NCBI GenBank assembly: GCA_028287765.1
Contig: JAQBPA010000029.1
Coordinates: 1 to 35,300 of the forward strand
DNA: 35,300 nt
DNA from: Bacteriovoracaceae bacterium
GTDB taxonomy: Bacteria > Bdellovibrionota > UBA2394
Reading direction: 5' to 3'
The notes under the pieces were generated by a model. The model saw nothing but the letters and a program-made list of their open reading frames with translations. It searched no databases and was not told the DNA's origin. Both the position numbers and the translations under genes were made by a program. Positions 1,325-35,168 of the stretch are shown piece by piece (within the stretch, counting starts at the first letter, position 1; each line of letters begins with the position of its first letter).

Positions 1325-1372
1325 CGCGACAGAAGGCAGTCGTATCTTGATAAATTTTCTTTGAGATCCACA

Positions 1373-2590: not shown

Positions 2591-2717
2591 CACGGTGGTT
2601 TATAACAGGTTCACCGAAGCGACGCAAATTGCTTAAGCCGAGCTATCTAAGTTGTTGATCTTCCGCACCTTGTAGAAGCAAACCCAAAATCGATCATGTC
2701 CTCTTGAGTCAGTTTTT

Positions 2718-2795
2718 TTAGAAATGCGAACCCTCTTTATATTCTGGCTGAACGAAGGTCCGAGCGTAAATTTTTGTTTTTTTAAATTTCGTCAT
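2718..2795 (-). CDS. Possible 25-residue basic peptide
   Basis: The frame starts MTKFKKTKIYARTF and ends in EGSHF. It has an ATG preceded at 8 nt by GAGG (GAGGAAGCCAAA). It lies alone in the 283-bp gap between two exported-protein genes on the same strand. The good ribosome binding site is the only support. Its basic start is superficially like the peptide gene at 25285-25383, but no sequence identity supports a link. Confidence 0.2.
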   Translation of the reverse strand: MTKFKKTKIYARTFVQPEYKEGSHF

Positions 2796-2876
2796 TTTGG
2801 CTTCCTCGATAATGTAAATATGCGCTGCAAAGATCGAAAATTAATGGGGGAAATGAATCGATCTCTTTTCACGTTT

Positions 2877-3794
2877 TCATTTGTTTCCAGAAACTTGTCT
2901 CTGAAATTCCAAACCATCTTCTCGTTCTTTATCTTTGCTGAAACCGCCACCCACCACTTTTTCTCTCTTAAATTTTTTAAGTTCTGTTGCCGATTTTCGA
3001 ATAGATGCATCAGGGTCGTGAGATTCTATCTCAAGAAATATCGGCACAGCTTTCAAATCGCTAATGAGCTGTTGAGCATGAGCACTGTCATCTGGAAATT
3101 GGGTTGGCGAATTTTTTTCAATGAATCGAAGCGTTTCGTGAACGACTCCATTTCGAAAATGGTCTTTATCTTTGGCTTTGGAAACTTCAGATTCAAGTGC
3201 CGCATACGCAAGTCTTCGCGTTGGCCATTCCCATCCACTTAAAACTTCACGAACCAGAGCTTGGATTTGTTCATCTGTAAGCGACGAGGCAGATCCCATG
3301 GCCCATGCGGCTGCGGCTTTCACGGAACCAGGTTTGCTCTCTTTAAAAAGCTCATAAATTTTTTCAGTTGTGGCTGGGGCCAGATCCTTATTTAAAGCGA
3401 TTAGACCGACGAGACTCCCCGTTTTAATACTCTCACTTGGATCAATTAATTTAGAGACAAGCATGGATTCGGATTCGGGAAAATTTAACTGCTTTGAAAG
3501 AGTAATCATAGATGCAAAATCCTGCTCGATTTCATTTAAATTAGCTTCTTCTTTTTCTCGCTGTCGAGACGGTTCCATTTTTTTGACAGAATCGCGCATA
3601 TTTCTTAGCCAAGATTCCTGCAACTCTTTTCTTCCATAAAAGAGCGAGTACCATTCGACTTTGCTTGCACTCGAAAGTCCTTCACCTTTTTCCTTCACAA
3701 GGGGAATCAGTTTAGAATCCGTATTGGCTAGTTCTTCAGCAAATAAAATTTGCAACGAGGTAAACAGAAATGAAATAAAAAATAGAATTCGCAT
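2877..3794 (-). CDS. Exported HEAT-repeat-like alpha-solenoid protein
   Basis: A 305-residue protein with a clear Sec signal peptide (MRILFFISFLFTSLQILFA, cleavage near AEELA). Regularly spaced helices carry the alternating small/hydrophobic pattern of HEAT repeats, for example AAAAWAMGSASSLTDEQ and RRLAYAALESEV, roughly residues 100-275. Such solenoids usually serve as protein-binding scaffolds, here presumably in the periplasm. The start is well fixed by AGGAG (3801-3805), six bases before the ATG. It appears to be a single-gene unit. No specific family is recognised. Confidence 0.8.
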   Translation of the reverse strand: MRILFFISFLFTSLQILFAEELANTDSKLIPLVKEKGEGLSSASKVEWYSLFYGRKELQESWLRNMRDSVKKMEPSRQREKEEANLNEIEQDFASMITLSKQLNFPESESMLVSKLIDPSESIKTGSLVGLIALNKDLAPATTEKIYELFKESKPGSVKAAAAWAMGSASSLTDEQIQALVREVLSGWEWPTRRLAYAALESEVSKAKDKDHFRNGVVHETLRFIEKNSPTQFPDDSAHAQQLISDLKAVPIFLEIESHDPDASIRKSATELKKFKREKVVGGGFSKDKEREDGLEFQRQVSGNK

Positions 3795-3933
3795 TTTTTT
3801 CTCCTATGTTAGAGGCAAAATCCCGAAAGAGAAAAAATAATAATCGACGACTTTCAAATAGCTATGGACCTTTGGACTGACCTCATGACCTAGGTATTAC
3901 AGACAATGCCTTGGAATCGATTAATCGATCTAG

Positions 3934-4560
3934 GTGAGAAGGATTGCTTTCCACTTTTTAATTTCCTCTACTATTATTTTTGTTTCTCAAACGAATTCTC
4001 AGTTTTCGCTTGCGGCTGAGCGCTCTTCTTCACTCTTCAAGAAACCAACCACTATCTGTGTTGTCTATTTAATCGCGATTTCATTTGGCATATATGTTTA
4101 CGGAGCCCACGTTTTAAACTTGGCTGGAAATGCATTTGAGCAAGAACAAACGACCATGAAGATGGTTGAAAATGCCCGAACGAATCAATTAGCTAGTTCC
4201 GAACTTTTAAATCTCATTTCGAGCATCGACGAACATTTTAAAAAGTCGGTCAAACAAGGACCCGATGTGAACCGCTTCGGTCATCCTGTTTTTCATGGTT
4301 ACGATGAAGTTGAAGTGAAACTAAGGCGTCAAAAGACGATTGAACTCAAAGACTATGTAAAATCTCATTCAATGACGGCGGAAGACATTAGAATCACGCA
4401 CAATTATGTAAGTTTTTTAATGCAAATATATGACGTCGCACGAAAATTTCGTTGGGATATCAAGGATCGTTTTATTTCAGGTACTAAATTTTATTCACCT
4501 AAATATTTTGATCCGAAGGTCTATTCTGAGATTCTGCAAGACTTGGGCCACCCCCCTTAG
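3934..4560 (+). CDS. Exported or membrane-anchored protein, unknown
   Basis: A 208-residue frame. It has a signal-like N-terminus (MRRIAFHFLISSTIIFVSQ) and a second hydrophobic helix at about 39-62 (TTICVVYLIAISFGIYVYGA). A charged, mostly helical domain of about 145 residues follows. The start is a GTG without a convincing ribosome binding site, so it is uncertain; the two-helix topology holds with this start. No family is recognised. Confidence 0.6.
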   Translation: MRRIAFHFLISSTIIFVSQTNSQFSLAAERSSSLFKKPTTICVVYLIAISFGIYVYGAHVLNLAGNAFEQEQTTMKMVENARTNQLASSELLNLISSIDEHFKKSVKQGPDVNRFGHPVFHGYDEVEVKLRRQKTIELKDYVKSHSMTAEDIRITHNYVSFLMQIYDVARKFRWDIKDRFISGTKFYSPKYFDPKVYSEILQDLGHPP

Positions 4561-15817: not shown

Positions 15818-15833
15818 TGGCATAAGAATTGCT
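15818..15833 (+). promoter_or_regulatory. Predicted sigma-54 promoter for 15856-16659
   Basis: TGGCATAAGAATTGCT matches the -24/-12 consensus TGGCAYR-N4-TTGCW with exact spacing. The expected start of transcription is about 15844, 12 nt before the ATG. Confidence 0.7.
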
Positions 15834-16883: not shown

Positions 16884-19184
16884 TTAATCCTTTTGCTCCA
16901 ATGAAAAAGATCGAATTTCTCCTCGATCAAAAGTTGCCGCTTCGCCAATTGAAGCCCGTCCACTGGCTAAACTTTGCGAATAAATATTTTTGCTGTCTTC
17001 GAGCAGCTTTAGTCCTTCGTCATTTGGGAAAGTCGCGAGTGGAATTTCATAAATATCTCTCGTCGAACCATTCGTAAACGTCGCGGAAATATGTCCATTC
17101 GGATTAATATTAATACTCGTGATGTACCCAGCCGTTCTTCCATTCTGACTAGAAACAATGACCGAAAGGGGCGCTGAAAACTGAGTAGATGAAAAAGTTC
17201 CTTGTGAAATTTGTCCGAAGTCATAAGCCATTTCTCGCACAATTGCGGCTCCATTTGCCCATTGAATTTCACTTCTAAATCCAGCTAATGCCGGGTTAAT
17301 CATTTCACCTGCAACTAATTGCGCATCAAGATCTAATGCGGAGTAATGATGAGGTGCGACACCTACCAGACTTCCCGAAGTATTGAAGGTCATTGTACCT
17401 TCGGCGAGAACAACGGCGCCACCAGGGGTGCCGACGTAATTGATGAGATTAGTTCCCATTGTTAAGACATGATAGCTCCAAGAATTTATGGCTTCCTTTC
17501 TAAAAAAAGTCACAACGCTTCTGGAGTTTCCGAGTGAATCATAAACCATGATGGCTGTATTAAAATTGGAAGTTGCTGCGGCCTGAGTGAAACTCGTGGT
17601 TTCAAAAGCTACTGCAGCAATTGGCTGACTAGCATCAAGATTGAGTAAGTAGTGAATCGTTGTCGTTGCAATAGGTTTCGAGGCCAGTCCTAATGTGGTA
17701 ACTTGAACATTCGTGAGTTTCGTGGCGACTTTTCCTTCTTCATCAATCGCGTAGCCTTGAAGAGTATAGCCGCTCTGCTGCATGACTAATTGTCCCGCTA
17801 AATCTCGTACAAAAGCACCAGCCCGAGTGAAGTAGGTAGATCCGCTCAATGGCTCATTCACCGCAAAAAAACCAGAACCTTGTATCGCAAGGTCTGTTGG
17901 TTGAGTTGTGTTTACAAAAGCTCCTTGGGAAAAATCGGGGAGATTTGCATTCAAGTCTGAAGCGGAAGATTTGGGCGTGTCTTTTTGTTCTATTGCAAAT
18001 GACTGAATCCATCCCCGCCCAGAAGATCGGCTTTCTGCGATAGAAGCACTTCCACTGATTTGGTTTTCCGCATAAATATCTTTGCTATTTTGGACGAGAC
18101 TTAATCTTTCTTCATTCGGAAATAAGGCAAGTGGAATTTCATAAATATCTTGTGTCACTCCGTTGGCAAAAAATGCCGAAATACGTCCATTCTTATTGAT
18201 ACTAAACCCCATTAGATTCCCGGAATTTCTTCCATCCTGCGCAAGTAATTCGGCTGCCGAACTTATTCCAAATTGTGTTGTACGAGAGGTGCTTCCACTC
18301 ATTTGCCCGAAGTCGTAGTTGATCTCAGCAATTGGAGACCCGCCCTTCCATTGAATATAACCTGCTGGATTTCCCAATTCCGGATTAATCAAGTCACCGG
18401 CCGCCAAAATACCTGACTCATTGAGATGAGACGGTACCCTGAATGTTGTTTCAGCTGTTACGTCGGTTAGAGAACCGGCTGAATCAAAGATAAGTATACC
18501 ATCCTGCAAAATCGCACTTCCACCTGCGACAGCTGCATAATTGGCTAAATTCGATCCCTCGGTAAGCACATGATAGCTCCAAGTATTCGCGGCAACCTTT
18601 CTAAAGAAGGTATGAATCTCATGAGCATTTCCTACGGAGTCATATGCGGTTTGACTAACATTAAATTGAGAGGTCAAAGCTGCGTTGGTCAGAGTAGATC
18701 CATCAAAAGGTCCTCCAGCTGTATTCTGACTAGCATCAAGATTCACTGAGTAATGAAGTATTGTCGTCGCGCGAGCCTTCGAATCCAGTCCCAACGTGGT
18801 AACTTGAATATTTGAGAGCTTCGCGGCGACTTTTCCTTTCTCATCGATGGCGTAACCTTGAAGATAATAACCATCTCGTGTTGTGAGGACGCCTGTACCG
18901 AGCGAGTCCTTAATAAAGGATCCCGATCGAGTGAAATATTTTTCTCCCGAAGCCGAATTCACAATAAAAAATCCGTGACCTCTGATCACGAGATCCAAAG
19001 TTCGATTGGTGCTAACAATTTTACCTTCAGAAAAATCGGCAAGTGGTTGACTGCTACCCTCCACAGAAGATTTGGAATCATTTGATAAATTTTGATTTTC
19101 ACTTTTGTTCAAGGTGTCCGACGAAGATCCACAGCCTGCTAACAAAAAGCTCGAAACGATTAAAATTGCAGCAAAAAATTTCAT
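16884..19184 (-). CDS. Lipoprotein with two tandem flagellar-hook (FlgE-like) domains
   Basis: 766 residues beginning with a lipoprotein signal (MKFFAAILIVSSFLLAGC, lipobox LAGC, Cys18) and a serine/asparagine linker. Two similar halves follow, about 48-402 and 415-766. Each opens with the hook/rod signature: DFSEGKIVSTNRTLDLVIRG with GHGFFIV and KYFTRSGSF in the first, DFSQGAFVNTTQPTDLAIQG with GSGFFAV and YFTRAGAF in the second. Each continues through 'G(Y)xLQGYAIDE.GKVA.KL.N(I/V)QVTTLGL' and ends in SF.(I/L)EQKD. The D0 coiled segments needed for hook polymerisation are absent at both ends. The family normally builds the flagellar hook; here a membrane-anchored, non-polymerising surface protein is inferred. 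The start is supported by GGGGGAA upstream. No flagellar genes are nearby. Confidence 0.85.
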   Translation of the reverse strand: MKFFAAILIVSSFLLAGCGSSSDTLNKSENQNLSNDSKSSVEGSSQPLADFSEGKIVSTNRTLDLVIRGHGFFIVNSASGEKYFTRSGSFIKDSLGTGVLTTRDGYYLQGYAIDEKGKVAAKLSNIQVTTLGLDSKARATTILHYSVNLDASQNTAGGPFDGSTLTNAALTSQFNVSQTAYDSVGNAHEIHTFFRKVAANTWSYHVLTEGSNLANYAAVAGGSAILQDGILIFDSAGSLTDVTAETTFRVPSHLNESGILAAGDLINPELGNPAGYIQWKGGSPIAEINYDFGQMSGSTSRTTQFGISSAAELLAQDGRNSGNLMGFSINKNGRISAFFANGVTQDIYEIPLALFPNEERLSLVQNSKDIYAENQISGSASIAESRSSGRGWIQSFAIEQKDTPKSSASDLNANLPDFSQGAFVNTTQPTDLAIQGSGFFAVNEPLSGSTYFTRAGAFVRDLAGQLVMQQSGYTLQGYAIDEEGKVATKLTNVQVTTLGLASKPIATTTIHYLLNLDASQPIAAVAFETTSFTQAAATSNFNTAIMVYDSLGNSRSVVTFFRKEAINSWSYHVLTMGTNLINYVGTPGGAVVLAEGTMTFNTSGSLVGVAPHHYSALDLDAQLVAGEMINPALAGFRSEIQWANGAAIVREMAYDFGQISQGTFSSTQFSAPLSVIVSSQNGRTAGYITSININPNGHISATFTNGSTRDIYEIPLATFPNDEGLKLLEDSKNIYSQSLASGRASIGEAATFDRGEIRSFSLEQKD

Positions 19185-20956: not shown

Positions 20957-23128
20957 TCATACAAAATACTCAACAATCTTCTCCGCTTTCTCTTCTTTTG
21001 AAATGATTCCTTTTATCCAATACATTCCTTGTGAATATAGCCCTTGAAAATCCTCAGGTGCTGATGCGGTGTTCAACATAATTTCATGAAAGCCAAGATC
21101 ATCGTAAAAACCTTTCGCATGAATTTCACCACGCTCACCGTTCTCCAGCTGAGAATCGACTAAGATGGGCTTATTCGGATCGAGTTTTCGAGCATCTTTA
21201 AGAAATTCAGAAGCTCTTCTATAAAAGCGAAGCGTGAGTCCCTTAGCCTTCGCCGCTTTTTTTAGGTTGATGATATGCAGGCCATTATCATCGATCACAC
21301 TTCCATCATATTTGCCAATCACGTCCTCATCCATTGGAGTTATAATAAATTTAATTTTTTTGATGAGAATTTTTGGAAGCAATCTTATATTCTTACGATC
21401 ACATTCATCTAAAAGCCTAGAGTCGCTGTCATTATGGGTGAGAAGAATAGATCGTTCTTGAAGATTAAACATTTCAATGAGATCGAGACCTGTTTTGTTT
21501 ATCTCGGATTCTTGCAGATCGTAATCCATCAGCACTAGATCTGAGGAAGAAATCGTATTCGACTCCGCCCAGCTCTTAAAATTTTCAAATCTATTTTGAA
21601 CAACGATTTTCATCTGCGGACATTTTTGATTGATCAACTTTTTTAACCGACCAGCAAAGCTTTCATCATTATCCATAATGATCACTCGATCGCAGTGAAG
21701 CAGGTCTATTTCTTTAACGAAGGAGTTCCGAGACCACTCCGCTAAAAAACGAAGCTTAATAGACGTTCCGACTCCTTCTGTTGAATCGATAAATACTTCT
21801 CCATTTCCCTTTTTTATGATTTCAATGGCTTTCGCTAAACCCGTTCCGCGATCGCTTCCTTCTTTCGTTGAGAAGCCATATTGGCCCACTCGATCGACTT
21901 GCTCCCTTGGAATTCCTCGACCCGTATCCCGAACCTCAACAACTGCATGCTCTCCATCTCGTTTAACGGAGAGCACGACCTCACCTTTCTCCGCAATTGC
22001 TTCGACTGAATTATTAATCAAATTTGAAATGGCTGTTCGAAATTCAACAGGATCAATCCTAGAAAACACATCGAATTCGCTCGTCAAAAAATCAAATCTA
22101 ATATTTATGCGACGATCATGAAGATACTCCACCGATTTCATTTCTGCCATATGCGCAATGTAAGGCGTAAGTTGAAGAACATAACTTCTTTGTTCATCAC
22201 TTAAACTTTGAGAACCAGCTCTTTGAAGCTGCTGCATTTTAATCGAGATGTCGCTGGCGGACTTTTGAAGAATTAGTAAATCCTCTTCGCTAATTTTAGA
22301 ACGAAGAGTTTCAATCATATTGATGATAATGCTCGTGTAAGATTTCAAATCATGTCCAAGTTGAGCAGCCATTCGGCCCCGTTCTTCTTCGACGGATTTT
22401 TTCAAAAGTTTCTCTTGTTGCTTTTCGATTCGACCTTGCAGTGAATCAAATATACTTTTGATCGCTTCAGTTTCGCTTAACACCGCAGCAGTTTTATATG
22501 CAGAAATTTCATGTTTCCTCGTGCGATCGTGAGGGTCGAAGTTTTCTATATGCTGTTTTAAATTTTCAAGTGGGGCACCTATCCCCACGAGAAGAGATTT
22601 TGATCGAAGTAATAAGGCCATAAGAAGAGCGATAGCAATGGCCACTGCCGTAAGCGCCATATATTCAAGAACTCTTGGACGAATTGTATTCGGAAAAACG
22701 ACTTTGATTGAAAACATTTCCGGGCTATTCGGATAAATTTTAAATGAAGATACTTGCACAATGTAAGGATTAAAAAGGACTTTCCAAAAGCCTGTTTCTT
22801 GGAATTTAAGAGAATCAGGACCCGCAGAAAGCTTTGAGGCAACTAAAGGTCGAATCTGTTTCGCACTTACTGAAAGCCAAACGGCATTCGTCGTTTCCAA
22901 AGATTTCGACAAATCGCCCCGTATCTCAATCTCATCTCCAATTTGAATTTTTGGTTTAATGATTGCAGCCAACTCCTGAGTTAAAAGTTCAAGCTTATTT
23001 TGCTCTGCATTTAAAAAAGCAACTGTAAGAATTGGAACAATCGCTACGACGGAAAGCAAAACGGAATTTAAAGTAATTTTCCAGACAACTTTTCGAAGCA
23101 AAGTCTTTAGAGTAATTTCATGTTTCAT
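20957..23128 (-). CDS. Hybrid sensor histidine kinase with two C-terminal receiver domains
   Basis: 723 residues. An N-terminal membrane helix (about 20-40), a periplasmic sensor region (about 41-152) and a second helix (about 153-174) come first. A coiled linker leads to the dimerisation helix with the phospho-acceptor histidine in QLGHDLKSYTS (His259). The ATPase domain has NLINNSVEA (N box, 369-377), DTGRGIP (G1, 401-407) and RGTGLA (G2, 427-432). Two receiver-like domains follow. The first has acidic residues at 486-488 and Asp535 in LVLMDYDL. The second has Asp613-614 and Asp658 in PILVDSQL. It is the last gene of the signalling operon (4-nt overlap with the MFS gene). It probably senses a periplasmic signal, perhaps the partner lipoprotein, and exchanges phosphate with the regulator at 27110-28477. 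Confidence 0.9.
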   Translation of the reverse strand: MKHEITLKTLLRKVVWKITLNSVLLSVVAIVPILTVAFLNAEQNKLELLTQELAAIIKPKIQIGDEIEIRGDLSKSLETTNAVWLSVSAKQIRPLVASKLSAGPDSLKFQETGFWKVLFNPYIVQVSSFKIYPNSPEMFSIKVVFPNTIRPRVLEYMALTAVAIAIALLMALLLRSKSLLVGIGAPLENLKQHIENFDPHDRTRKHEISAYKTAAVLSETEAIKSIFDSLQGRIEKQQEKLLKKSVEEERGRMAAQLGHDLKSYTSIIINMIETLRSKISEEDLLILQKSASDISIKMQQLQRAGSQSLSDEQRSYVLQLTPYIAHMAEMKSVEYLHDRRINIRFDFLTSEFDVFSRIDPVEFRTAISNLINNSVEAIAEKGEVVLSVKRDGEHAVVEVRDTGRGIPREQVDRVGQYGFSTKEGSDRGTGLAKAIEIIKKGNGEVFIDSTEGVGTSIKLRFLAEWSRNSFVKEIDLLHCDRVIIMDNDESFAGRLKKLINQKCPQMKIVVQNRFENFKSWAESNTISSSDLVLMDYDLQESEINKTGLDLIEMFNLQERSILLTHNDSDSRLLDECDRKNIRLLPKILIKKIKFIITPMDEDVIGKYDGSVIDDNGLHIINLKKAAKAKGLTLRFYRRASEFLKDARKLDPNKPILVDSQLENGERGEIHAKGFYDDLGFHEIMLNTASAPEDFQGLYSQGMYWIKGIISKEEKAEKIVEYFV

Positions 23129-24417
23129 TTAATCTCGCTCCTAAAGGAATCACGTTCTACAAAAATGACTGTGAGCGAAAAAATAATTGAAAATACAATC
23201 ACCGTAACGAACGCTTCTCGAACCGAAGGAGTACCGCCTCTAAAAAGAGTCAAATAAGTGCTGTACGCTCCGACCCAAAGGTACCCCGGAATGTTTTGGA
23301 AACTAAGTGCCGTCGCATAGTCCTGCTTTTTTACTAACGACATTAAGTCATTCATTGAAATATTTTGAATGGCAGACGTTGCCGTATTAAGTAGAGCGCC
23401 GTAAACGAAGATATAGATTATTTGGATTACAGCGTTTGAATGTTGATAAAGCGGCAAAAAAGCGAGACTGCTCAACAGCGTCAGCACATAAAATGTGAGC
23501 AAATATTTCCCTCGGCTTAATTTATGAACCAACAGTGGAAGAATGTGGCCTTTGACGGCTCCTCCAAAAGCAGAGCCGAGCATGAACGAAACCATGAAAG
23601 CCCAACGCAGAAAATTGTCTCCTTCATATTCTCGACCAAGAGAAATGATTAAATAGCCAGCAATGACAACCGAGATCATCCAATACGAGAGATTGTAAAT
23701 AGACGAAATCCTAGCCGACCTATCAGTCACCAACGCTTTTATGATTGCAAATGGTGAAGATGGATGAAGAGTTTTTTCGATATCTCCGATTTGTCGATAG
23801 TCTCGCAAAAGAGTTACGAAGCAACCAGCATACAATATAATCCCAAATAGAAAGGTATGAGGAAGTAGATGCATTTGATTAAATATCGCGGCCAATACAA
23901 ACGCGCAAAGGACTGCAATAGTCGTATAGTATTTGCCATGATTTTGGCTAGTGGTGAGACTCGTCAGCAAAAGCTTTTTTTCTTCTTCCGTTTGACAGGC
24001 TCGATGAAGCGCATCCTGATAAAAAGCTTCGATAGATCCTGAACTGAAAGGCTTTGCTAGACCGATCAGTATTCCGTGAATAATAAATAAAACTCTGGAA
24101 AAATCGTTATGAATGAGAAGCGCAATATAAACGCAGGTCAGTCCCGTCATAATCGTTCCTAAACATAACGCGATTGAAGGAACGCGACCCATTCGATCAG
24201 CCAAAATTCCAAATGGAACTTCGAGAATGCCATTCAATGAAAACTCAATCAAAGTTACAAGAGCAACCGTATCCACAGGAACACCTGAAGAGATAGCGAG
24301 CACACCCACGATGAGTCTAAATAATACCGAATTAAAAAATACTGCACTGGCGTAGAGAGCTCTAAAAACTCCAAGTCGAACAATAATTTCATGACATGAA
24401 ATATTTCTTTCCGTCAT
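23125..24417 (-). CDS. Major facilitator superfamily transporter
   Basis: 430 residues with about twelve hydrophobic helices. The MFS motif A is clear between helices 2 and 3 (GILADRMGR, 70-78, preceded by EVPF). MFS proteins move small solutes or peptides across the inner membrane using the proton gradient. The overall style (EVPFGILADRMGR, long central loop at about 205-225) fits drug/peptide exporters better than sugar importers, but the substrate cannot be read from sequence. Its position between the HExxH gene and the histidine kinase, with 4-nt overlaps on both sides, suggests it exports the product of this operon. Confidence 0.85.
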   Translation of the reverse strand: MTERNISCHEIIVRLGVFRALYASAVFFNSVLFRLIVGVLAISSGVPVDTVALVTLIEFSLNGILEVPFGILADRMGRVPSIALCLGTIMTGLTCVYIALLIHNDFSRVLFIIHGILIGLAKPFSSGSIEAFYQDALHRACQTEEEKKLLLTSLTTSQNHGKYYTTIAVLCAFVLAAIFNQMHLLPHTFLFGIILYAGCFVTLLRDYRQIGDIEKTLHPSSPFAIIKALVTDRSARISSIYNLSYWMISVVIAGYLIISLGREYEGDNFLRWAFMVSFMLGSAFGGAVKGHILPLLVHKLSRGKYLLTFYVLTLLSSLAFLPLYQHSNAVIQIIYIFVYGALLNTATSAIQNISMNDLMSLVKKQDYATALSFQNIPGYLWVGAYSTYLTLFRGGTPSVREAFVTVIVFSIIFSLTVIFVERDSFRSEIK

Positions 24418-25277
24418 CTTATTCCCGTCGCACAGATTTTTTCGGTTTTAAATTCGAAACTCTCCAGATCGAATCGGACCGATTCAATAATTTCTGTAAT
24501 ATGCTCGTCGAATGATAGGCATTTATGTTGTTTAGCCGTTTGATAATCTTGCTTAAACAGCGGACTAATTTTTTCTATCATTTTATAAGCAGCGTCACGA
24601 TATTGAGAGTCGAGCTTTTTCGTAGATATAATTCGAAGAGCGAGACTCAGCATACAAGCTTCTGCAAAAGCGCCATGATAAATTCCAATTAACGGGCGCT
24701 CCGATTCTCGAATCGCTGAATACTTTGTTTCATCCCAAGGTTGGCTAAACACGTTTTGATCATCGTGAGTTGTCACAACCATATTGAGATAATGATGAGC
24801 TAGTTCGTGGATGATGATCTCGGCCCATTTAATCGGACAGTTACTATCCATTCGATAAAGGATCTGTCCGAAAATTTTTGGATCGGAAGCGGATTCAAAG
24901 CGATCTCCCACCATCGTTTGAGACAATTGAGGCTTAATGATTTTTATGACTTCGAAATACTCAGGCCATACACCTCGAATGAGTTTCAATGCCTTTTGAT
25001 ATGTTGTTTCTTTTTTCAAGAACAGTTTGCACGTATTTGATCTAAAAATATCGCTCCCTAGACTCGATTTTTTTCGACGGAGATCTAACTGTATAAAAGA
25101 TCGCAAGCTCTTCTTTTTTTCAGAATCGTCTACAGAAAAATAGCACCATGAGAGAAATGGAAGGCTCATTTTTTCTAAGTCCCTTTCAGAAAAATCAGGC
25201 AGAGAAGAGAGAAGGCATTTCCCTCCCTCTTCTCTCAGATTTAAGACGTAGGATTCAATCATTCCCAAATCAAACAT
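24414..25277 (-). CDS. HExxH protein resembling peptide-modification (mod_HExxH-type) proteins
   Basis: 287 residues from the ATG at 25277. The longer frame from a TTG at 25313 overlaps the small peptide gene and lacks a ribosome binding site. HELAH (157-161) lies in WAEIIIHELAHHYLNM. About 25 residues later comes YSAIRESERPLIGIYHGAF. The order HExxH, spacer, 'R...RPL.G..Hg.(y/f)A' is typical of the HEXXH-motif proteins found beside RiPP maturation genes (TIGR04267-like). The match is from memory and approximate. The protein has no signal peptide, so it is cytoplasmic. It follows the 32-residue peptide ORF by 7 nt and overlaps the MFS gene by 4 nt. Likely role: processing or modification of the peptide (inference). 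An ordinary metallopeptidase is the alternative. Confidence 0.7.
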   Translation of the reverse strand: MFDLGMIESYVLNLREEGGKCLLSSLPDFSERDLEKMSLPFLSWCYFSVDDSEKKKSLRSFIQLDLRRKKSSLGSDIFRSNTCKLFLKKETTYQKALKLIRGVWPEYFEVIKIIKPQLSQTMVGDRFESASDPKIFGQILYRMDSNCPIKWAEIIIHELAHHYLNMVVTTHDDQNVFSQPWDETKYSAIRESERPLIGIYHGAFAEACMLSLALRIISTKKLDSQYRDAAYKMIEKISPLFKQDYQTAKQHKCLSFDEHITEIIESVRFDLESFEFKTEKICATGIR

Positions 25278-25284
25278 AGAGCAC

Positions 25285-25383
25285 TTATGGATAACTGGCC
25301 CGAACTTCGCCAATCAGTTTGTTCTTAAGAAGAGATAGATTGAATGTGCGTCTTTTAACGCGCATTTTTTTATTTCTATTCAT
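25285..25383 (-). CDS. Short basic peptide, candidate signal or RiPP precursor
   Basis: A 32-codon ORF inside the signalling operon, too short for usual gene callers. It has AAAGGA 8 nt before the ATG, the best ribosome binding site in this part of the operon, in the 18-nt space after the binding-protein gene. The start is very basic (MNRNKKMRVKRRTFN), the middle amphipathic (LSLLKNKLIG) and the end EVRASYP. Its stop lies 7 nt before the ATG of the HExxH gene, which has no ribosome binding site of its own, so the two are probably translationally coupled. Size, position and partners fit a precursor peptide. It could instead be a mere leader ORF that couples translation. Confidence 0.6.
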   Translation of the reverse strand: MNRNKKMRVKRRTFNLSLLKNKLIGEVRASYP

Positions 25384-25401
25384 ATGTTGTTTCCTTTCAT
25401 A

Positions 25402-26895
25402 TTAATTCCGCACCATCGAAGTCCTTCGGACGTCGCGATACGAAAAATCCCAAAACTTTATGCTTAGACCTCCTTCATTTTTTATGTGAAGACCTGGTCG
25501 ATACCAAGTTGTGAAAACTGGATAAAAAAGAGGAATCGCAGGAGCGTCTTTAAAGAACGCAGCCTCCATTTTATTTAAAATTTCGATTTGCTCGCCCTTC
25601 TCTGTCTTGTTTTGATATTTCAAAAATAGATGAGATAAATTTTTATTCTGATATCCCTGCAATCGCTGACTTAATCCATTGGCATAGACGACGAATGATG
25701 TTGATGGATCAAAATTAGTTGGAGCTTCACCCTTTAAAATCATATCGACCTTTCGAAGGCGAATATCGCGAAGCATTGCATCAAACGGCATGGATTTTAT
25801 TTCCAACGTAAGGCCGATATTCTTAAACGCATCGATCAAATATTTATCCAATATCTGAGAATCTTTTGAAGTCTCTCTAATGCCGAGGATCACTTTTCTT
25901 TCAGTTTTTTTTGTATTCTTAGAGATAATTTCACGAGCTTTCTTCACGTTAAAAGGATGTCTTTTACTTGTGTATCCGACATAACCACTGGGAATCATCC
26001 CACCGGCTGGAATCCCCTCTCCCTCAAATTTTTTTTGCAGCTCGTCGATGTTAATAGCGTTGGCTACCGCTAAACGGTTTTCCCTATTTTTAAAAATTCC
26101 CCGCGCGCATTGAAATACTAAGGTGTATGTTCCAGCAAGTTTTTGTATGTAAGAGCTGTTTGATAGAAGCGCCTTCGAGACCTCGGAATCAAGATTGCTA
26201 ATTGTGTCAATGCCTCCTGATAAAAATATCTTCAGCTGGTTTTCTGGTTTAATTTTTTTATAAACTATTTTTTCGAATTGGGCTTGAGCATCAAATCTTT
26301 CGGTCACGATCTTATCGTTATTAATTTCAGTAATCTTATACGGTCCAGTGCCAATGTATCGACCGTTAACTTTTTTCATAACGCTCGCCTCTGCACTTGC
26401 CAAATTCTTCATAAGAAGTTCAAAATTTTTATTTTTAAGTTTTAGAACAAAACGAGTGGGACTCAGAATTTTAAAACCAGAACAAGACTTTCTTTCCATG
26501 CAATCTTCAAAAGCTTCTAATTGAGATGTAAATTTGCCTTTATTCTTAGCACTTCTTACGAACGAGTTAAGAATATCCAACGAAGTCACCAGAGAGCCGT
26601 CGTGAAATCTCTTTTCTGATCCGATTTCAAATTCAATTTCGTTTCGATCACTAATAACCCTCCAGGAAGTAGAAAGCTCCGGCACAGGTGCAAGGCGCTC
26701 ATCGAGACTTACAAGACGATCAAAAACGTTATCGACCACCTTATTTCCATTGATATCATCGCCGTATTTAAGTTCAAGATCTGGAATCGCCGTGATTGGA
26801 ACATTAAGGACGCCAATTTCACTCGTTTGAACATTCGATTTAGTGCAACTTGCAAAAACGAATGCAAAAAATAAAATGAGTGAAGTTCGCTTCAT
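25402..26895 (-). CDS. Oligopeptide-binding-type lipoprotein (SBP_bac_5 / DppA-OppA family)
   Basis: 497 residues. A lipoprotein signal (MKRTSLILFFAFVFASC, Cys17) is followed by the hallmarks of family-5 solute-binding proteins: FHDGSLVTSLDILNSF (97-112), GTGPYKI (182-188) and the usual C-terminal 'aipLfyP' region (APAIPLFYP). Such proteins bind peptides or small ligands for ABC importers, but no permease or ATPase genes are present. It overlaps the preceding 73-residue gene by 4 nt and is followed at 18 nt by the peptide ORF. In this setting a role as periplasmic ligand receptor feeding the histidine kinase is likely (inference), as known for binding proteins that partner with sensor kinases. 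Confidence 0.88.
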   Translation of the reverse strand: MKRTSLILFFAFVFASCTKSNVQTSEIGVLNVPITAIPDLELKYGDDINGNKVVDNVFDRLVSLDERLAPVPELSTSWRVISDRNEIEFEIGSEKRFHDGSLVTSLDILNSFVRSAKNKGKFTSQLEAFEDCMERKSCSGFKILSPTRFVLKLKNKNFELLMKNLASAEASVMKKVNGRYIGTGPYKITEINNDKIVTERFDAQAQFEKIVYKKIKPENQLKIFLSGGIDTISNLDSEVSKALLSNSSYIQKLAGTYTLVFQCARGIFKNRENRLAVANAINIDELQKKFEGEGIPAGGMIPSGYVGYTSKRHPFNVKKAREIISKNTKKTERKVILGIRETSKDSQILDKYLIDAFKNIGLTLEIKSMPFDAMLRDIRLRKVDMILKGEAPTNFDPSTSFVVYANGLSQRLQGYQNKNLSHLFLKYQNKTEKGEQIEILNKMEAAFFKDAPAIPLFYPVFTTWYRPGLHIKNEGGLSIKFWDFSYRDVRRTSMVRN

Positions 26896-27113
26896 TCCGA
26901 ACCTTCATCAAATTTGTCGATGTACTTGGCTCGGATTTCTTTCCATCGCTCTCGCAAAATATCTGCTCTAGGCGCAGCGACATTCATGGCAGCCTTACAG
27001 TAGGAGAGATCAGAATGAAGATTTGAATTCACAAGCTCGACGGCATTTAGAATGCCATGGAGTTCGGATTGAAAATCATGAAGTAAATCGCTCTTTGAAA
27101 CTCGATCGCTCAT
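26892..27113 (-). CDS. Small protein with a histidine-kinase H-box-like helix
   Basis: 73 residues, all helical. The segment LLHDFQSELHGILNAVELV (about 10-28) resembles the first helix of a histidine-kinase dimerisation domain, in which H-[DE]-[LF]-x3-L-x2-I surrounds the phosphorylated histidine (here His12). No ATPase domain follows. It could be a stand-alone phosphotransfer or kinase-interacting protein linking the hybrid kinase and the regulator. It overlaps the response regulator gene and the binding-protein gene by 4 nt each. The H-box reading is an inference from a short match. Confidence 0.65.
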   Translation of the reverse strand: MSDRVSKSDLLHDFQSELHGILNAVELVNSNLHSDLSYCKAAMNVAAPRADILRERWKEIRAKYIDKFDEGSE

Positions 27114-28477
27114 ATGGAACTTCCTAAAAGGCCCGCCAGAAGATTTTGTGCTTTTTTCTGACCTACCCCCAAATGTCGCATAAGCGGACGGATCGGACGT
27201 GCTTTTCCGACCTTCTTAATAAAATGCTCAACAACTTCTCTTTCAATCTCCAAAATGAAAGTTTTAAGTCCAACTTCTTCTACGAGCTTCGCTTGTTTTG
27301 GTGTCAGAACTTTATAGGAATATTTTTCCTCGTATTCATTTTTAACAATTTTTTCGGGAAGATCTTCGGTTGAAAAAATGGGCTTCTTACTTTTTCTCTT
27401 TGACTCCCAAAAATCAAAAAACTCTCGCTCATTTCCAGGCCAATCGTAATTCACTAAAGCTTTTCGAGCATTGGCCCGAATCACCATGCCCCGACCACCA
27501 CCGAAATTTCTTTGAACATGGTCTAAAAGCAGTTCAATATCTCGCGGACGTTCTCTTAAAGATTTGAAATGGACAGTCAGGCCTGCAATTCGATTATAAA
27601 AGTCTTGTCGAAATTCTTTCGCAGCCATTTTTTCGTAGAGATCCTCGCAGGTCGCAGTGATCAACTTAAAATCTGAATGAAGCATCTTCTCCGATCCAAG
27701 CGGTGAATAATTTCCATTTGCCAATGAAACGAGTAACGATTTTTGCATTCTAATACCGATCGTTCCGATTTCATCGATGAACAGCGTTCCGCCATTTGCT
27801 TGGCCAAGCAATCCTACTCGTTTCTTTTTTCCGTCCGTGAATGAGCCCGCTTCATGTCCAAAAAGTTCTGATTGAAGGGTACTGTCTTGGAGTCCCTCGG
27901 GACTGAACTCGACATATTTATCGCGTGTTCCGTGCCATCCTTCGTGAAGAGTTTTCGCAAGTACGCTCTTCCCACAACCCGAAGGACCCGAAATGTGAAG
28001 AGAAACTTTGGTGCCGAGATTATCGACAAGAATTTCATATTGCTTCAGATGATCTGGATCTTGGGTGAGAAATTTTTGAGCAATTAATTTTCGAACGCGA
28101 ATCTTTTGGTCCGAGCCAACACAATTTTGAAGAATCTCCTCAATCGCTGCGAGTTTGAACGGCTTCGTAAGGTAATCGTCGCATTCATTTTTATAACCTT
28201 CTTCGACATATTCTTCTTCTCGATGCCCCGAAAGAATGACACTATAAATTCCTTTTCTTTTGAGATCTGGAATCAATTCAAATCCGGCTCGTCGCTCTTC
28301 GAGATCAACGTCGATAAAGGAGACATCGAACGCCTGCCGAGTGACCTGCTCTCTCGCTTGCGATCTCGATACCGCATAGTGAACCTCGTGACCAAGGTCA
28401 GTAAGTTGCTTCGTCAGATTATTTCGCTGAAGTTCGTCGTCTTCGATAATGAGAATTTTGAGATGCGACTTTTTCAC
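27110..28477 (-). CDS. NtrC-type response regulator with variant GAFTGA loop
   Basis: 455 residues. The receiver domain (1-120) has Glu12-Asp13-Asp14, phospho-acceptor Asp56 (SFIDVDL) and Lys105 (LTKPFK). The AAA+ domain has Walker A GPSGCGKS (164-171), Walker B TLFIDE (231-236) and the sensor motif YDWPGNEREF (344-353). The C-terminus (RPLMRHLGVGQKKAQNLL) is a Fis-like helix-turn-helix. The sigma-54-contacting loop, normally GAFTGA, reads GSFTDG (211-216). The conserved Thr is kept, but two other positions are changed. The start is GTG with GAAGGAG 5 nt upstream. First gene of the operon. It is the obvious activator for the sigma-54 promoters at 28811, 31067, 35168 and perhaps 15818. Confidence 0.9.
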   Translation of the reverse strand: MKKSHLKILIIEDDELQRNNLTKQLTDLGHEVHYAVSRSQAREQVTRQAFDVSFIDVDLEERRAGFELIPDLKRKGIYSVILSGHREEEYVEEGYKNECDDYLTKPFKLAAIEEILQNCVGSDQKIRVRKLIAQKFLTQDPDHLKQYEILVDNLGTKVSLHISGPSGCGKSVLAKTLHEGWHGTRDKYVEFSPEGLQDSTLQSELFGHEAGSFTDGKKKRVGLLGQANGGTLFIDEIGTIGIRMQKSLLVSLANGNYSPLGSEKMLHSDFKLITATCEDLYEKMAAKEFRQDFYNRIAGLTVHFKSLRERPRDIELLLDHVQRNFGGGRGMVIRANARKALVNYDWPGNEREFFDFWESKRKSKKPIFSTEDLPEKIVKNEYEEKYSYKVLTPKQAKLVEEVGLKTFILEIEREVVEHFIKKVGKARPIRPLMRHLGVGQKKAQNLLAGLLGSSI

Positions 28478-28540: not shown

Positions 28541-28548
28541 GAATACAC
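28541..28548. promoter_or_regulatory. Half-site GAATACAC next to the operon promoter
   Basis: GAATACAC is the half-site of the palindrome at 28574-28592 and stands 13 bp upstream of the predicted -35 element of the signalling operon. It would be in place for autoregulation (inference). Confidence 0.35.
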
Positions 28549-28573: not shown

Positions 28574-28592
28574 GTGTATTCAAGGGAATACG
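28574..28592. promoter_or_regulatory. Palindromic operator, candidate response-regulator binding site
   Basis: GTGTATTCAAGGGAATACG contains the perfect inverted repeat GTATTC-N4-GAATAC. A near copy (GTGTATTTTTAGGAATACG) lies upstream of the second sigma-54 promoter at 30940-30958. Its centre is about 250 bp upstream of the expected start of 28839-30200, an enhancer-like distance. Confidence 0.6.
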
Positions 28593-28810: not shown

Positions 28811-28826
28811 TGGCACGAGTTTTGCA
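28811..28826 (+). promoter_or_regulatory. Consensus sigma-54 promoter for 28839-30200
   Basis: TGGCACGAGTTTTGCA is a full match to TGGCACG-N4-TTGCW. Transcription is expected at about 28837, only two bases before the GTG of the gene. Confidence 0.88.
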
Positions 28827-28838: not shown

Positions 28839-30200
28839 GTGATCAGATTTCGACCGCTCTTCATCTCGGCTGCTTCATTTTTTGTTTTGATTTCGAGCTT
28901 CCCATTTTCGATTTCGGCAAAAGATCCTGAAAATAATTCGCTGTGCAAAGAAACACTTGCTCGATTATTTAGAGAATACAGCCATCTAGAAAGCGAGCCT
29001 CTAACTTCTCAGAAATCTTATATAGTTCTTACGCGCGACGAAAAGGGGTCCCAACTCTTTCGTGGGAAATTTACACACGTGAAAGCCGATCATATTTATT
29101 TTAAAGACCTTGAGCCTATTACAATTTATGGAAAGGATTCAGACCACTATGGGCAATTCAAAGTAGAAAAAGATCGGCAAATTGAAGGCGACATTTCATT
29201 AAGTAAGGTCGTCCATATATCTCCAGCGGAAGTAACCTGGGATCGTTCAATGTTTGGAAATCGTTTGCTAAAGAACAGGTTTATCCTTTTGACTATTGGT
29301 TTTCCCTTTCTATGTTTTCTTCATCTCCTCGATATGTATAAATTGCTTCTGGATCCTTTCATTCCGATTCAAGAGCTTGGCTCCACAAAGGGAGGAGTGC
29401 GATTGACCGCAGGATTTCCCTATCGCAAACAATCTCTACAAAATCGAAGCGCACAACTCATCAAAGAAATAGAAAAGTTTGAAGAGTTTAGTCATGATGC
29501 TGGATTCAATTCCAACTCAGGCGTTCTCCTTACCATCCGGAGATTTGCGTTTCCTTGCTCTGAATCTGGAGTAGGCAGATATATTCGTGCCGCCAATTTA
29601 GCCTCGGTGAAAGCCAAAATTGATCTGAATTTTAACAAACATTATGACTCAAAATATGATTTCCCTTCAACGTCGCTCGCTTTGCACGAAATCGTTCACA
29701 CCATAACCCTTAGGCAACTTAATTTTGGAAAGGATGGCGAAACCTTTCATAAAAAAATTCTTAACGAAGCTCTGTCTGATTTTATTCCAGCTCTTTTTCT
29801 TAATGATCCGAAGATCGTAACAACAAAAACCGTCCTGAGGGACATCGAAGATCCATTTAACAAAAATGCCGTGGATCGTCTGATTCTGTCGCTTTCAGAT
29901 CCACTCATAGCAACTAGCGATGACGAACATCTCCTCAGCCTTCCTATTTCAAATCTTTTCTGGTCGCTTCGAACATTTTTAGATCCACGAGTCCATCCTG
30001 GGGTTTTGCAGAAATATTCTAAAGCCATCATGTTAAGCATCACTGAAAAGGATTTCGACTCTCGACCGCAGTTTTATAAAACCATCCTAAACGAAACGAT
30101 AAAATTCTTTTCTATGAATTCGTCTCGAGACGAAATCTATAAAATTGTCGATGCGAATGCGAAAAAAATGGCGCTCGTTCTTAGTCGAGATACTCATTAA
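28839..30200 (+). CDS. Exported thermolysin-like HExxH metallopeptidase
   Basis: 453 residues. The signal peptide (MIRFRPLFISAASFFVLISS) is followed by an early cysteine (NNSLCKETL). A small beta-rich domain (about 58-130) and a membrane helix (about 147-170) come next. The catalytic region has HEIVH (283-287) in LALHEIVHTI and NEALSD (309-314) 21 residues later, which correspond to the zinc ligands and NExxSD motif of gluzincins such as thermolysin. The enzyme is therefore likely tethered to the inner membrane and acts in the periplasm. GTG is the only start that keeps the signal peptide; it has no ribosome binding site and lies 12 nt after the -12 element. The target is unknown. Confidence 0.8.
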   Translation: MIRFRPLFISAASFFVLISSFPFSISAKDPENNSLCKETLARLFREYSHLESEPLTSQKSYIVLTRDEKGSQLFRGKFTHVKADHIYFKDLEPITIYGKDSDHYGQFKVEKDRQIEGDISLSKVVHISPAEVTWDRSMFGNRLLKNRFILLTIGFPFLCFLHLLDMYKLLLDPFIPIQELGSTKGGVRLTAGFPYRKQSLQNRSAQLIKEIEKFEEFSHDAGFNSNSGVLLTIRRFAFPCSESGVGRYIRAANLASVKAKIDLNFNKHYDSKYDFPSTSLALHEIVHTITLRQLNFGKDGETFHKKILNEALSDFIPALFLNDPKIVTTKTVLRDIEDPFNKNAVDRLILSLSDPLIATSDDEHLLSLPISNLFWSLRTFLDPRVHPGVLQKYSKAIMLSITEKDFDSRPQFYKTILNETIKFFSMNSSRDEIYKIVDANAKKMALVLSRDTH

Positions 30201-31066: not shown

Positions 31067-31082
31067 TGGCACGGAAATTGCC
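31067..31082 (+). promoter_or_regulatory. Sigma-54 promoter of the 31128-34164 operon
   Basis: TGGCACGGAAATTGCC matches the consensus except for the last base. The start is expected near 31093. The sequence CCTTCGTG spans the start region here and at the promoter at 28811. Confidence 0.82.
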
Positions 31083-31127: not shown

Positions 31128-31421
31128 ATGGACCAACAAAATCAAACCAAAACTCGTCGGAAAATAAAAAAGCCTGCCGAGGTTTTTAAAGTCTGCCCCA
31201 TTTGCGATTGCAGAAAACTTATTCGATTCGATGGCGAAGTCTTCTGCAATGGATGCGACTGGAACAGCGTTGAAATCAACGCAGTACTCTCAACAAGAGT
31301 CACCCGATCCTTGCAAGTCGAGAACCTTGAGTGCTCCCCATATATACCTGAGGGGGCTGCAAAACGGGCTGCAAATAGGCTGCAGCAAAAAAGTTTAAAT
31401 ATTTTAGGAGGGGCAATATGA
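31128..31421 (+). CDS. Zinc-ribbon protein
   Basis: 97 residues. A lysine/arginine-rich start (TKTRRKIKK) is followed by a C4 zinc ribbon: CPIC (Cys23, Cys26) and CNGC (Cys40, Cys43), the latter in FCNGCDW. The remaining 45 residues are helical. Such ribbons usually bind nucleic acid or RNA polymerase. It is the first gene of the sigma-54 operon, with an excellent ribosome binding site (GGAGG, 6 nt). Its stop overlaps the next start by 4 nt, which pairs it with a sigma-region-4-like protein. A role in transcription is inferred. Its 3' end contains the left copy of the GGCTGCA inverted repeat. Confidence 0.75.
   Translation: MDQQNQTKTRRKIKKPAEVFKVCPICDCRKLIRFDGEVFCNGCDWNSVEINAVLSTRVTRSLQVENLECSPYIPEGAAKRAANRLQQKSLNILGGAI
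31353..31384 (+). repeat. Left arm of a 32-bp inverted repeat (three GGCTGCA units)
   Basis: Three units of GGGCTGCAAA spaced 12-13 bp apart, within the zinc-ribbon gene. It matches the complement of 31879-31910 at 30 of 32 positions. Each arm overlaps the 3' part of a gene. Confidence 0.75.
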
Positions 31422-31987
31422 GCGACTTAAAAGATATTTTTAACCCTTGGCTAAATTCCGATGGAACAAGAAAAGCTGACGATGAGATTCGAAAAATATC
31501 TAAAGATTGGGATCCAGCAACTTGGGAGGCCTACCTTCAAACTCACGAGCGACGCTTAAAGGAAGTCCTTCTACACGGATCGAATGATATCGAAAATTTT
31601 TCAGTGAATGCCGTAGCCGTGCTTTTTGATATGGCCGAAAGCGAGTCAAATCCACATTTAAAACGGGCGGTTCAGATTGCTCTGAACAAACTTAGCAACC
31701 GAGAAAATCAAATTCTTCGATTGGTCTTTTGGGACGGCAAAACCACGCGAGATATTGCCGAAGAACTGAATATAAGCAGATTCAATGTCCGAAGGGCATT
31801 AGAAAGGGGTCTAATCAAAATTCGTGAAATATTCGTAGCGAATGAAATCCCAACTACCGCAGAAATTTCAAAAAATCTTGCAGCCCATTTGCAGCCCATT
31901 TTGCAGCCCCGCCGTTCTATAGGTAGGGACGGATACACGGCGAAAGAAACAAGTCTGCCATTAACCCCTGAAAGGGATATCACATGA
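31418..31987 (+). CDS. Sigma-region-4-like regulatory protein A
   Basis: 189 residues. The central segment (about 82-140) is a sigma-70 region 4 helix-turn-helix: LSNRENQILRLVFWDGKTTR, then DIAEELNISRFNVRRALERG and IKIRE. Regions 1-3 are missing; instead about 80 residues of acidic helical sequence precede it and about 45 residues of tail follow. It therefore cannot be an ordinary sigma factor. It may act as an anti-sigma-like, co-activator or DNA-binding protein, or form a split sigma factor with the protein at 32153-32557. The ribosome binding site AGGAGG is 6 nt upstream. It overlaps both neighbours by 4 nt. Confidence 0.8.
   Translation: MSDLKDIFNPWLNSDGTRKADDEIRKISKDWDPATWEAYLQTHERRLKEVLLHGSNDIENFSVNAVAVLFDMAESESNPHLKRAVQIALNKLSNRENQILRLVFWDGKTTRDIAEELNISRFNVRRALERGLIKIREIFVANEIPTTAEISKNLAAHLQPILQPRRSIGRDGYTAKETSLPLTPERDIT
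31879..31910 (-). repeat. Right arm of the 32-bp inverted repeat
   Basis: TGCAGCCC three times, inverted relative to 31353-31384, with 494 bp between the arms. It encodes the LAAHLQPILQP part of the sigma-4-like protein tail. Confidence 0.75.
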
Positions 31988-32152: not shown

Positions 32153-32557
32153 ATGAACCTCCAAGTTGCCTTGCCCTGGCTTAACGAGATCGTGAGTGAT
32201 CCGAAAGAAATTCAGAAATTGATCGATCGACACGCTCTTGAGGATTGGTACGCAAATTATTCTCAAAATAAGATCGATAGAAAAAATGGATCCATTGATC
32301 ATTTTCCCTTGAAGGAAAAGCAGCGTGTTCGAGAACTTCTTCGAAAGCTTACTAGTTTCGAACAAGCGGTCGTTTATCTTAGATTTTGGGAAAATCTCTT
32401 GGCTTATGAAATCGCACGGCTGTTCGGACTCTCCGAAGAGAGAATTCTTTCTATTCTGGAGGAATCGATCAAAAAGCTTCGGTCTTTATATGATTTGGAA
32501 CTGAGCAGATCGCAAATATCACAAGACAATTTGCTGGAAGGAACTTCCCGATCATGA
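32153..32557 (+). CDS. Sigma-region-4-like regulatory protein B
   Basis: 134 residues. A second region-4-type domain lies at about 58-112: LRKLTSFEQAVVYLRFWENL, then LAYEIARLFGLSEERILSIL and KKLRSL. As in the protein at 31418-31987, regions 1-3 are absent and only about 55 residues precede the domain. GAGG lies 9 nt upstream of the ATG. Two non-identical stand-alone region-4 proteins in one operon are unusual and suggest a two-part regulator (inference). Confidence 0.75.
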   Translation: MNLQVALPWLNEIVSDPKEIQKLIDRHALEDWYANYSQNKIDRKNGSIDHFPLKEKQRVRELLRKLTSFEQAVVYLRFWENLLAYEIARLFGLSEERILSILEESIKKLRSLYDLELSRSQISQDNLLEGTSRS

Positions 32558-34210: not shown

Positions 34211-35140
34211 TTATCTAAGCCGCGCTAAAATTTTTTTACAAATTGAGACAAAAGAATTTGCGAATCGCTTTAATGGAGGTCGCATTTTTGTCAGTACATC
34301 TGAATGCGGTTTGAAACTAATTGTAAATTCTTCTCCGCCAATTTCCTTTAGACATTCTTGGATTACGGAAACCGTAGTTCTTAGATTTGCTTTGACAAGT
34401 GAGGTCCCAGCTTTAATTTTTGGCACATGAATTGCAAGAAAACGGTCTTCTAAAATTTTTTCTATTTCTTCATGGGAATGTGCCTGAACGAATCTAAGGC
34501 CTTTTTCGGTTAATCCGTATTCCAAAATACCTAAAGGCATAACAATTCTTGCATTGAGTTTCTTTTGGATTCCTTTTACTTCAAGATCATTCAATATTTT
34601 TGCTTGTAGCTCAAAGTCGTACGCTGAAGGCATATGAAGTTGAATATTTTGCCACGCTTGAGTGGATTTAATAATATGCGGGTTAACAGATAGTTTTTTT
34701 TTCGTGAAGCCTTCCGTTATTTCTCGCTCGGTTTGCAAAGCTGAAATGGGATGAAAATGATATAATGTGATTTCAGGCGTGAATTTGAAAAGCGCTGCCG
34801 CCCCTTCTATTTTAATGGATACTGCTCTCATTTTTGAGCCCGTTGTGTCGGAGTTGTGTTGACCAGTTGAAGCTTGAAACCAGGCATTCATACCATGAAC
34901 AAAGAACCATGCTTCTTCACCACTTGATGTCATAAGAAGGCCACGCATATCGGCGATTCCACCATCTTCGGATTTTTCCGTAACTGCAACTTTGTCTGGG
35001 AACGGGTCCACCATAAGGTTGTCGGTCCGCCGAAAGGAATTGCTTTCCGGTTGGTCGTGTTGAGGAGATGCCGCCTCTAAACGATTCCAAATACTCACCA
35101 ATGAGAGCGCGATAAGGGCGAAAATTCGAAAAACGTTCAT
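34211..35140 (-). CDS. Exported protein with HxHP motif, possibly JAB/MPN-like
   Basis: The ATG at 35140 (signal peptide MNVFRIFALIALSLVSIW...EAA) is chosen because a sigma-54 promoter (35153-35168) would start transcription near 35142, excluding the upstream ATGs. This gives 309 residues. A central region has LYHFHPIS, and about 40 residues later HMPSAYDFE, then VMPLGILEYGL. HxHP and SxxD are the zinc ligands of JAMM peptidases, although the spacing is longer than usual, so this is a weak inference. The C-terminus is basic. It converges with the 31128-34164 operon. Confidence 0.7.
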   Translation of the reverse strand: MNVFRIFALIALSLVSIWNRLEAASPQHDQPESNSFRRTDNLMVDPFPDKVAVTEKSEDGGIADMRGLLMTSSGEEAWFFVHGMNAWFQASTGQHNSDTTGSKMRAVSIKIEGAAALFKFTPEITLYHFHPISALQTEREITEGFTKKKLSVNPHIIKSTQAWQNIQLHMPSAYDFELQAKILNDLEVKGIQKKLNARIVMPLGILEYGLTEKGLRFVQAHSHEEIEKILEDRFLAIHVPKIKAGTSLVKANLRTTVSVIQECLKEIGGEEFTISFKPHSDVLTKMRPPLKRFANSFVSICKKILARLR

Positions 35141-35152: not shown

Positions 35153-35168
35153 TGCAATAGTGGTGCCA
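35153..35168 (-). promoter_or_regulatory. Consensus sigma-54 promoter for 34211-35140
   Basis: On the minus strand TGGCACCACTATTGCA matches TGGCAC-N5-TTGCW exactly. The ATG lies 12 nt after the -12 element, the same distance as at 28811-28841. Confidence 0.82.

Follow-up and report, generated by a model that had tools for sequence, protein, structure and literature searches.

We describe a seven-gene operon in a 35,300-nucleotide stretch of DNA (here, the window; contig JAQBPA010000029.1 of assembly GCA_028287765.1) from a Bacteriovoracaceae bacterium of the phylum Bdellovibrionota. The operon probably forms a self-contained peptide-signalling circuit built on a ribosomally synthesized and post-translationally modified peptide (RiPP), a reading to which we give a probability of about 0.6. 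Its seven open reading frames (ORFs) all lie on the minus strand between positions 28477 and 20957, encoding an NtrC-type response regulator, a 73-aa protein, a family-5 solute-binding protein (SBP), a 32-aa precursor peptide, an HExxH-motif enzyme, a major facilitator superfamily (MFS) transporter, and a hybrid histidine kinase. Four junctions are 4-nt ATGA overlaps (27110-27113, 26892-26895, 24414-24417, and 23125-23128), and this layout agrees with the first-pass annotation of the window. In the circuit that we propose, the enzyme would oxidise the precursor and the MFS transporter would export the peptide across the inner membrane. In the periplasm, the lipid-anchored SBP would then bind the mature peptide and hand it to a small periplasmic domain of the kinase. 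The kinase would in turn signal, possibly via the 73-aa protein, to the regulator, which would act on the operon's own promoter and on other targets.

The putative precursor gene (25285 to 25383, minus strand) encodes MNRNKKMRVKRRTFNLSLLKNKLIGEVRASYP, with the core FNLSLLKNKLIGEVRAS, and is preceded by an AAAGGA ribosome-binding sequence. Whole-genome searches revealed an ORF of 26 to 32 aa in the same slot in four relatives (loci L011, L019, L020, and L021), between the enzyme gene and the SBP gene (or what remains of its end). The homologous peptides are MDSYDFDLDIHQDEVIGELRGSELGH (genome G030), MNSGITFNLDIHRDPVLGEIRGSVDIGGGGY (G121), MTTLEQNEQLEDVIINLDIFDDEIMSEARVSA (G118), and MNGENVDVLVNLDVLTDEVIGETRGSADW (G116). 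An ungapped 17-residue block of the five peptides scored 447 (shuffled mean, -36; standard deviation, 22), and the window peptide matched the block of the other four better than 5000/5000 shuffles of itself. A core motif can be defined in the precursors, but their N-terminal parts differ. A short precursor gene next to a modification enzyme and an exporter is also the arrangement of a RiPP gene cluster. Judged from these comparisons, the 32-residue ORF is real, as the first-pass annotation had supposed.

The rest of the cassette is conserved with the peptide. In L019 and L020 all seven genes are present in identical order, and the run of SBP, peptide, HExxH enzyme, MFS, and kinase genes is intact in these two loci and in L011 (genome G030). 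L021 is a 3.4-kb contig holding the middle of the cassette. The genomes of these closest relatives are named as Bacteriovoracales, Bacteriovoracaceae, and Bdellovibrionia bacteria, and a genome contig scan for the close subtype outside Bdellovibrionota returned only the same four relatives. Across 369 genomes, the five closest MFS homologues were exactly those of the cassettes, and the sixth was a second MFS of G030 located beside its cassette. Homologues of the MFS also occur in G310 and, weakly matching, in G122; having no cassette nearby, they were rejected as orphans. The first-pass annotation had proposed that these genes belong together, and in the relatives the peptide, enzyme, transporter, SBP, and kinase do stay together. 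We found no homologous locus that had kept the kinase and regulator and lost the short ORF or the HExxH gene, and none in which the SBP was part of an ordinary ABC importer. We conclude that the peptide cassette is real and conserved.

The HExxH protein (24414 to 25274, minus strand; the likely start is the ATG at 25274, and a TTG at 25313 is also open) is probably a RiPP-type peptide hydroxylase and not a protease. It matched the NCBIfam model TIGR04267 (alpha-ketoglutarate [aKG]-HExxH-type peptide beta-hydroxylase) with 50.8 bits against a curated cutoff of 40. In the whole-genome search of the relatives, the enzymes of G030 and G118 also exceeded the cutoff, that of G121 lay on the line (39.8, or 40.2 including frame neighbours), and that of G116 fell below it (34.6). 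The HExxH motif and an R...RP..G..H block are kept in the alignment of all five orthologues. The sole Protein Data Bank match of the enzyme profile was ChlH (8s5f), weak alone (E = 0.067), with the R..RP..G..H block aligned. The top Foldseek match of an AlphaFold model (pLDDT of 71) was the HExxH domain of the same entry (ChlBH; probability of 1.0, E = 6e-4, TM score of 0.57). Each of these three lines is modest alone; combined, they strongly favour a hydroxylase over a protease. An HExxH motif would also be expected of a zinc metallopeptidase with a trimming role, and PflC, an aKG-HExxH enzyme, cleaves hydrolytically with a leaderless substrate (PMC12636437). However, the family score lies above the cutoff, the conserved block aligns with that of ChlH, the best fold match is an aKG-dependent oxygenase, and a Pfam search of the protein gave no match and no peptidase family, so that we regard a trimming peptidase as improbable. 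The earlier suggestion that the peptide is modified or trimmed therefore holds for modification by a RiPP-type enzyme, with trimming less likely than oxidation.

RiPP pathways with enzymes of this type include those of PflC/PosC and PesO (PMC12636437, PMC13060819). The window enzyme shares with ChlBH, PflC/PosC, BpmH, and PesO (TIGR04267/IPR026337) the profile, the HExxH motif and R..RP..G..H block, the fold, and an adjacent precursor gene. In the published clusters that we consulted, the aKG-HExxH enzyme is partnered with multinuclear nonheme iron-dependent oxidative (MNIO), radical S-adenosylmethionine (rSAM), or nitroreductase enzymes, whereas no other modification enzyme accompanies it in the window, where it is linked with an SBP, a kinase, and a regulator. 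PflC and PosC act on the Ala of an ARMD sequence and remove ARMD, and the PosC variant A91V, with Val in place of this Ala, yields beta-hydroxylation of the Val and no cleavage (PMC12636437). Literal ARMD occurs in two precursors of the wider set described below (L064 and L065, both of one genome). Because of this site of action and the two ARMD precursors, we propose that the window enzyme would oxidise the 32-aa precursor, with the residue that precedes the invariant Arg (GE-V-R-A-S in the window), or one close to it, as the likeliest site; following the PosC result, Val27 is predicted to be hydroxylated, and the corresponding Ala of the G118 peptide to be cleaved.

To place the cassette in a wider context, we considered the TIGR04267 family throughout Bdellovibrionota, where it has matches in 125 of the 369 genomes. 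Forty loci, chosen by length and contig size and blind to their neighbours (although not a random sample), were fetched; after five long proteins had been set aside, 35 short HExxH genes from at least seven families remained. A family-5 SBP gene adjoined 24 of these 35, and 22 of the 24 also had a kinase, often with an NtrC-type regulator. With 5 to 15 such SBP genes per genome, this adjacency had a binomial probability of <1e-22 even at a generous 5% background. The precursor candidates of the wider set were 70 to 295 aa long and had Sec-type signals (judged by eye), with ends such as VDISIFDSHQFAQARMDFVRQ, and their cores aligned ungapped with the window core. L073 (8729-9616) and L077 (8769-9557), from one genus only, encode secreted multicore precursors with five or six tandem repeats of NLxxLRxxGxSESRVEIL, resembling pheromone precursors. 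Some candidates do not have the motif (the ends of L072 type and L022 differ), and the wider set may therefore hold more than one class. Two further kinds of TIGR04267 neighbourhood were seen. Long proteins (385 to 480 aa; L057, L058, L059, L083, and L084) are widespread in one family of the phylum and have a recurrent neighbourhood that does not look like a RiPP cluster. HExxH genes of about 280 to 310 aa (L063, L067, L068, L075, L076, and L081) lie beside a protein of about 450 to 470 aa with an 'LQQ..VASSTYF'-like segment; the two such neighbours tested gave weak ABC/AAA ATPase matches, marking a second, different type of HExxH cluster.

The window precursor has no Sec signal, and for this reason we propose export by the MFS protein (23125 to 24417, minus strand; Pfam MFS_1, 5.8e-10). 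The best indirect evidence that this protein may carry the peptide comes from a comparison of precursors: short leaderless precursors occurred with an MFS in 7/7 cases and precursors with Sec signals in 0/21 (Fisher's exact test, 8e-7). Two of the loci bearing on this comparison are unusual. In L022 the MFS comes from a different branch, and L069 encodes (1193-4201, minus strand) a 1002-aa fusion of an MFS-like domain with 11 transmembrane (TM) helices, a histidine kinase, and a receiver-like end. Without L069 and L022, the association persisted (Fisher's exact test, 2e-5).

The SBP (25402 to 26895, minus strand; lipobox FASC) matched SBP_bac_5 with 1.4e-41, and its closest solved structures are peptide- and opine-binding proteins. 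It shares the binding-protein family with the Opp/Dpp oligopeptide ABC importers, but no ABC permease or ATPase gene is present among the seven operon genes or in the complete loci L011, L019, and L020. In the hybrid kinase (20957 to 23128, minus strand), two TM helices flank a small alpha/beta domain in the periplasm. The protein also has an invariant H-box histidine (H259), an HATPase_c domain (6.9e-18), a receiver (Response_reg, 7e-4, below the Pfam gathering score), and a second, receiver-like C-terminal region. A fold search with its sensor domain gave weak Cache/PAS-like matches, none below an E value of 0.001. The 73-aa protein (26892 to 27113, minus strand) has equivalents of 82 aa in L019 and 69 aa in L020 (18 to 26% identity) and no Pfam family; one histidine (H12) is aligned in the three loci, making a role as a phosphorelay partner possible. 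LuxP-LuxQ, TorT-TorS, and ChvE-VirA are binding-protein-assisted sensor kinases for small molecules. Like them, the window operon pairs a periplasmic binding protein, free of any ABC permease, with a two-TM kinase whose periplasmic domain is small; it differs in its family-5 SBP and in adding a putative peptide ligand, a modifying enzyme, and an exporter.

The regulator (27110 to 28477, minus strand; GTG start; orthologues in L019 and L020) has a receiver (Response_reg, 1.4e-18), an AAA+ domain (Sigma54_activat, 3.9e-41), and, by eye, a C-terminal helix-turn-helix. The family labels given to the SBP, MFS, kinase, and regulator in the first-pass annotation thus all stand in Pfam. Its further claim, that the regulator drives sigma-54 promoters, fared differently. 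The three regulators of this subtype all have a degenerate version of the GAFTGA sigma-54 contact loop (window, GSFTDG; L019, GSHSEA; L020, GSYTGS), whereas most regulators of the wider set have an intact loop (GAFTGA or GSFTGA). Because of this loop, sigma-54 activation is unsupported for the subtype. The genome does encode RpoN and has 45 exact sigma-54 sites, compared with 2 in a reversed control. Exact -24/-12 elements occur in the window at 28811-28826 (plus strand), 34421-34436 (plus), and 35153-35168 (minus), and elements with one mismatch at 31067-31082 and 15818-15833 (both plus); several sit just before genes for secreted proteins. One of these genes (28839-30200, plus strand), which points away from the operon and closely follows an exact element, encodes a secreted HEIVH-motif protein with no Pfam match. 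Sites near the cassettes of the relatives are mostly absent and not conserved, and the genome has 16 Sigma54_activat matches. With the degenerate loop, these findings led us to reject sigma-54 targets as part of the cassette.

Other targets can be suggested. Upstream of the operon, GTATTC-N4-GAATAC at 28576 to 28591 is the only exact occurrence in the 2.84-Mb assembly, and a half site (GAATACAC) lies at 28541-28548. The regulator may bind its own promoter at this candidate operator. The window also encodes two sigma-70 proteins consisting of region 4 only (31418-31987 and 32153-32557, both plus strand). The first belongs to a family with the pattern PWL..DG...TWE.YL, members of which lie near 8/29 cassette loci compared with 0/16 others, and the sigma-70 region-4 proteins may be an output of the cassette. 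Elsewhere in the window, a 766-aa lipoprotein (16884-19184, minus strand) consists, by eye, of two tandem halves resembling the FlgE-type flagellar hook (RTLDLVIRGHGFFIV and PTDLAIQGSGFFAV), which is odd for a lipoprotein.

An RNA hairpin with a 15-bp stem (25201 to 25235, minus strand) lies 50 nt past the precursor stop, within the start of the hydroxylase gene. In 5/5 loci, no 50-nt segment of the operon is more stable than one that begins in the hydroxylase gene, 20 to 57 nt downstream of the precursor stop. The hairpin of our window folds with -27.1 kcal/mol (61 nt folded; z = -4.9), and 0/500 synonymous-codon shuffles reached the native stability in each of the five loci (z = -4.0 to -7.0). 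The five hairpins have unrelated sequences and a shifted base-pair register at an identical protein position. The stem runs into T7 in L011 and T4 in L020, like an intrinsic terminator, and an Rfam search of the operon gave no match. On the simplest reading, the hairpin would be a partial terminator or a 3'-end barrier that makes precursor mRNA more abundant than enzyme mRNA.

Of the complete peptide-signalling circuit first proposed for this operon, the gene set that stays together, the conserved short ORF, and the RiPP-modifying type of enzyme are thus upheld, and the sigma-54 step is not. Several points weigh against a signalling circuit. At acidic positions, the window peptide has diverged further than its four homologues, L011 is missing the regulator and the 73-aa protein, the MFS-like domain of L069 was recognised weakly (BLASTP, 2e-4; no Pfam match), and the source is an uncultured metagenome-assembled genome (2.84 Mb; 76% complete). 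A RiPP of another purpose, such as a toxin or metal chelator, would under feedback control give an identical gene set. Export by an MFS and control by a linked two-component system are frequent in RiPP clusters. The cassette could accordingly make a bioactive RiPP (antimicrobial, metal binding, or predation related), its SBP, kinase, and regulator serving feedback or autoinduction of its own production instead of communication, and the record of aKG-HExxH enzymes in the PflC/PosC and PesO pathways (PMC12636437, PMC13060819) fits such a product. We consider this unlikely, although it is the most serious competitor. The cassette has a single modification enzyme, an immunity gene is not evident, and the core does not vary in the manner of a toxin; its strong conservation between distant genera is more what would be expected of a ligand constrained by a receptor, and the SBP is a constant partner across 24 loci.

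The SBP and kinase might also sense external peptides from prey, the envelope, or nutrients, with the modified peptide acting as an effector or cofactor of the receptor and not as a released signal. Family-5 SBPs bind diverse peptides, and Bdellovibrionota include predators of other bacteria; many of the precursors bear Sec-type signals, and for these a role in the periplasm, with no release from the cell, is conceivable. The covariation of precursor type with export mode (MFS or Sec signal) suggests that the peptide crosses the inner membrane, which does not imply exit from the cell, and we find a receptor cofactor harder still to favour than a bioactive product.

Judged by its gene set and conservation, the window cassette would, more probably than not, operate as peptide pheromone circuits do, with a binding protein as coreceptor. 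The Gram-positive peptide pheromone circuits with kinases, agr and ComQXPA, follow a common logic with it: precursor, modifying protein, exporter, membrane kinase, and response regulator are encoded together. Their enzymes are unrelated to that of the window, which adds a binding protein, a Gram-negative envelope, and an NtrC-type regulator. To our knowledge, dedicated peptide signals have rarely been described in Gram-negative bacteria; our literature searches found none for Bdellovibrio-type bacteria and no description of the cassette. More tentatively, and somewhat against the odds, Bdellovibrionota may make widespread use of oxidised ribosomal peptides as pheromones. An aKG-HExxH enzyme would modify the [AVLITS]-R-x-[SDE] site of single-core leaderless precursors (with MFS) or of single- or multicore precursors with Sec signals, and the resulting hydroxylated or C-terminally amidated peptide of about 12 residues would be read by a family-5 SBP and its partner kinase. 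If true, this would be, as far as we know, the first receptor class for RiPP pheromones with a binding protein in Gram-negative bacteria. The hypothesis is directly testable, as a single operon supplies a candidate for each part: the ligand, its maker, the exporter, the coreceptor, and the kinase. The cassette also gives context to the HExxH genes found across the phylum, and the combination of family-5 SBP, HExxH enzyme, and kinase offers a search pattern for further systems.

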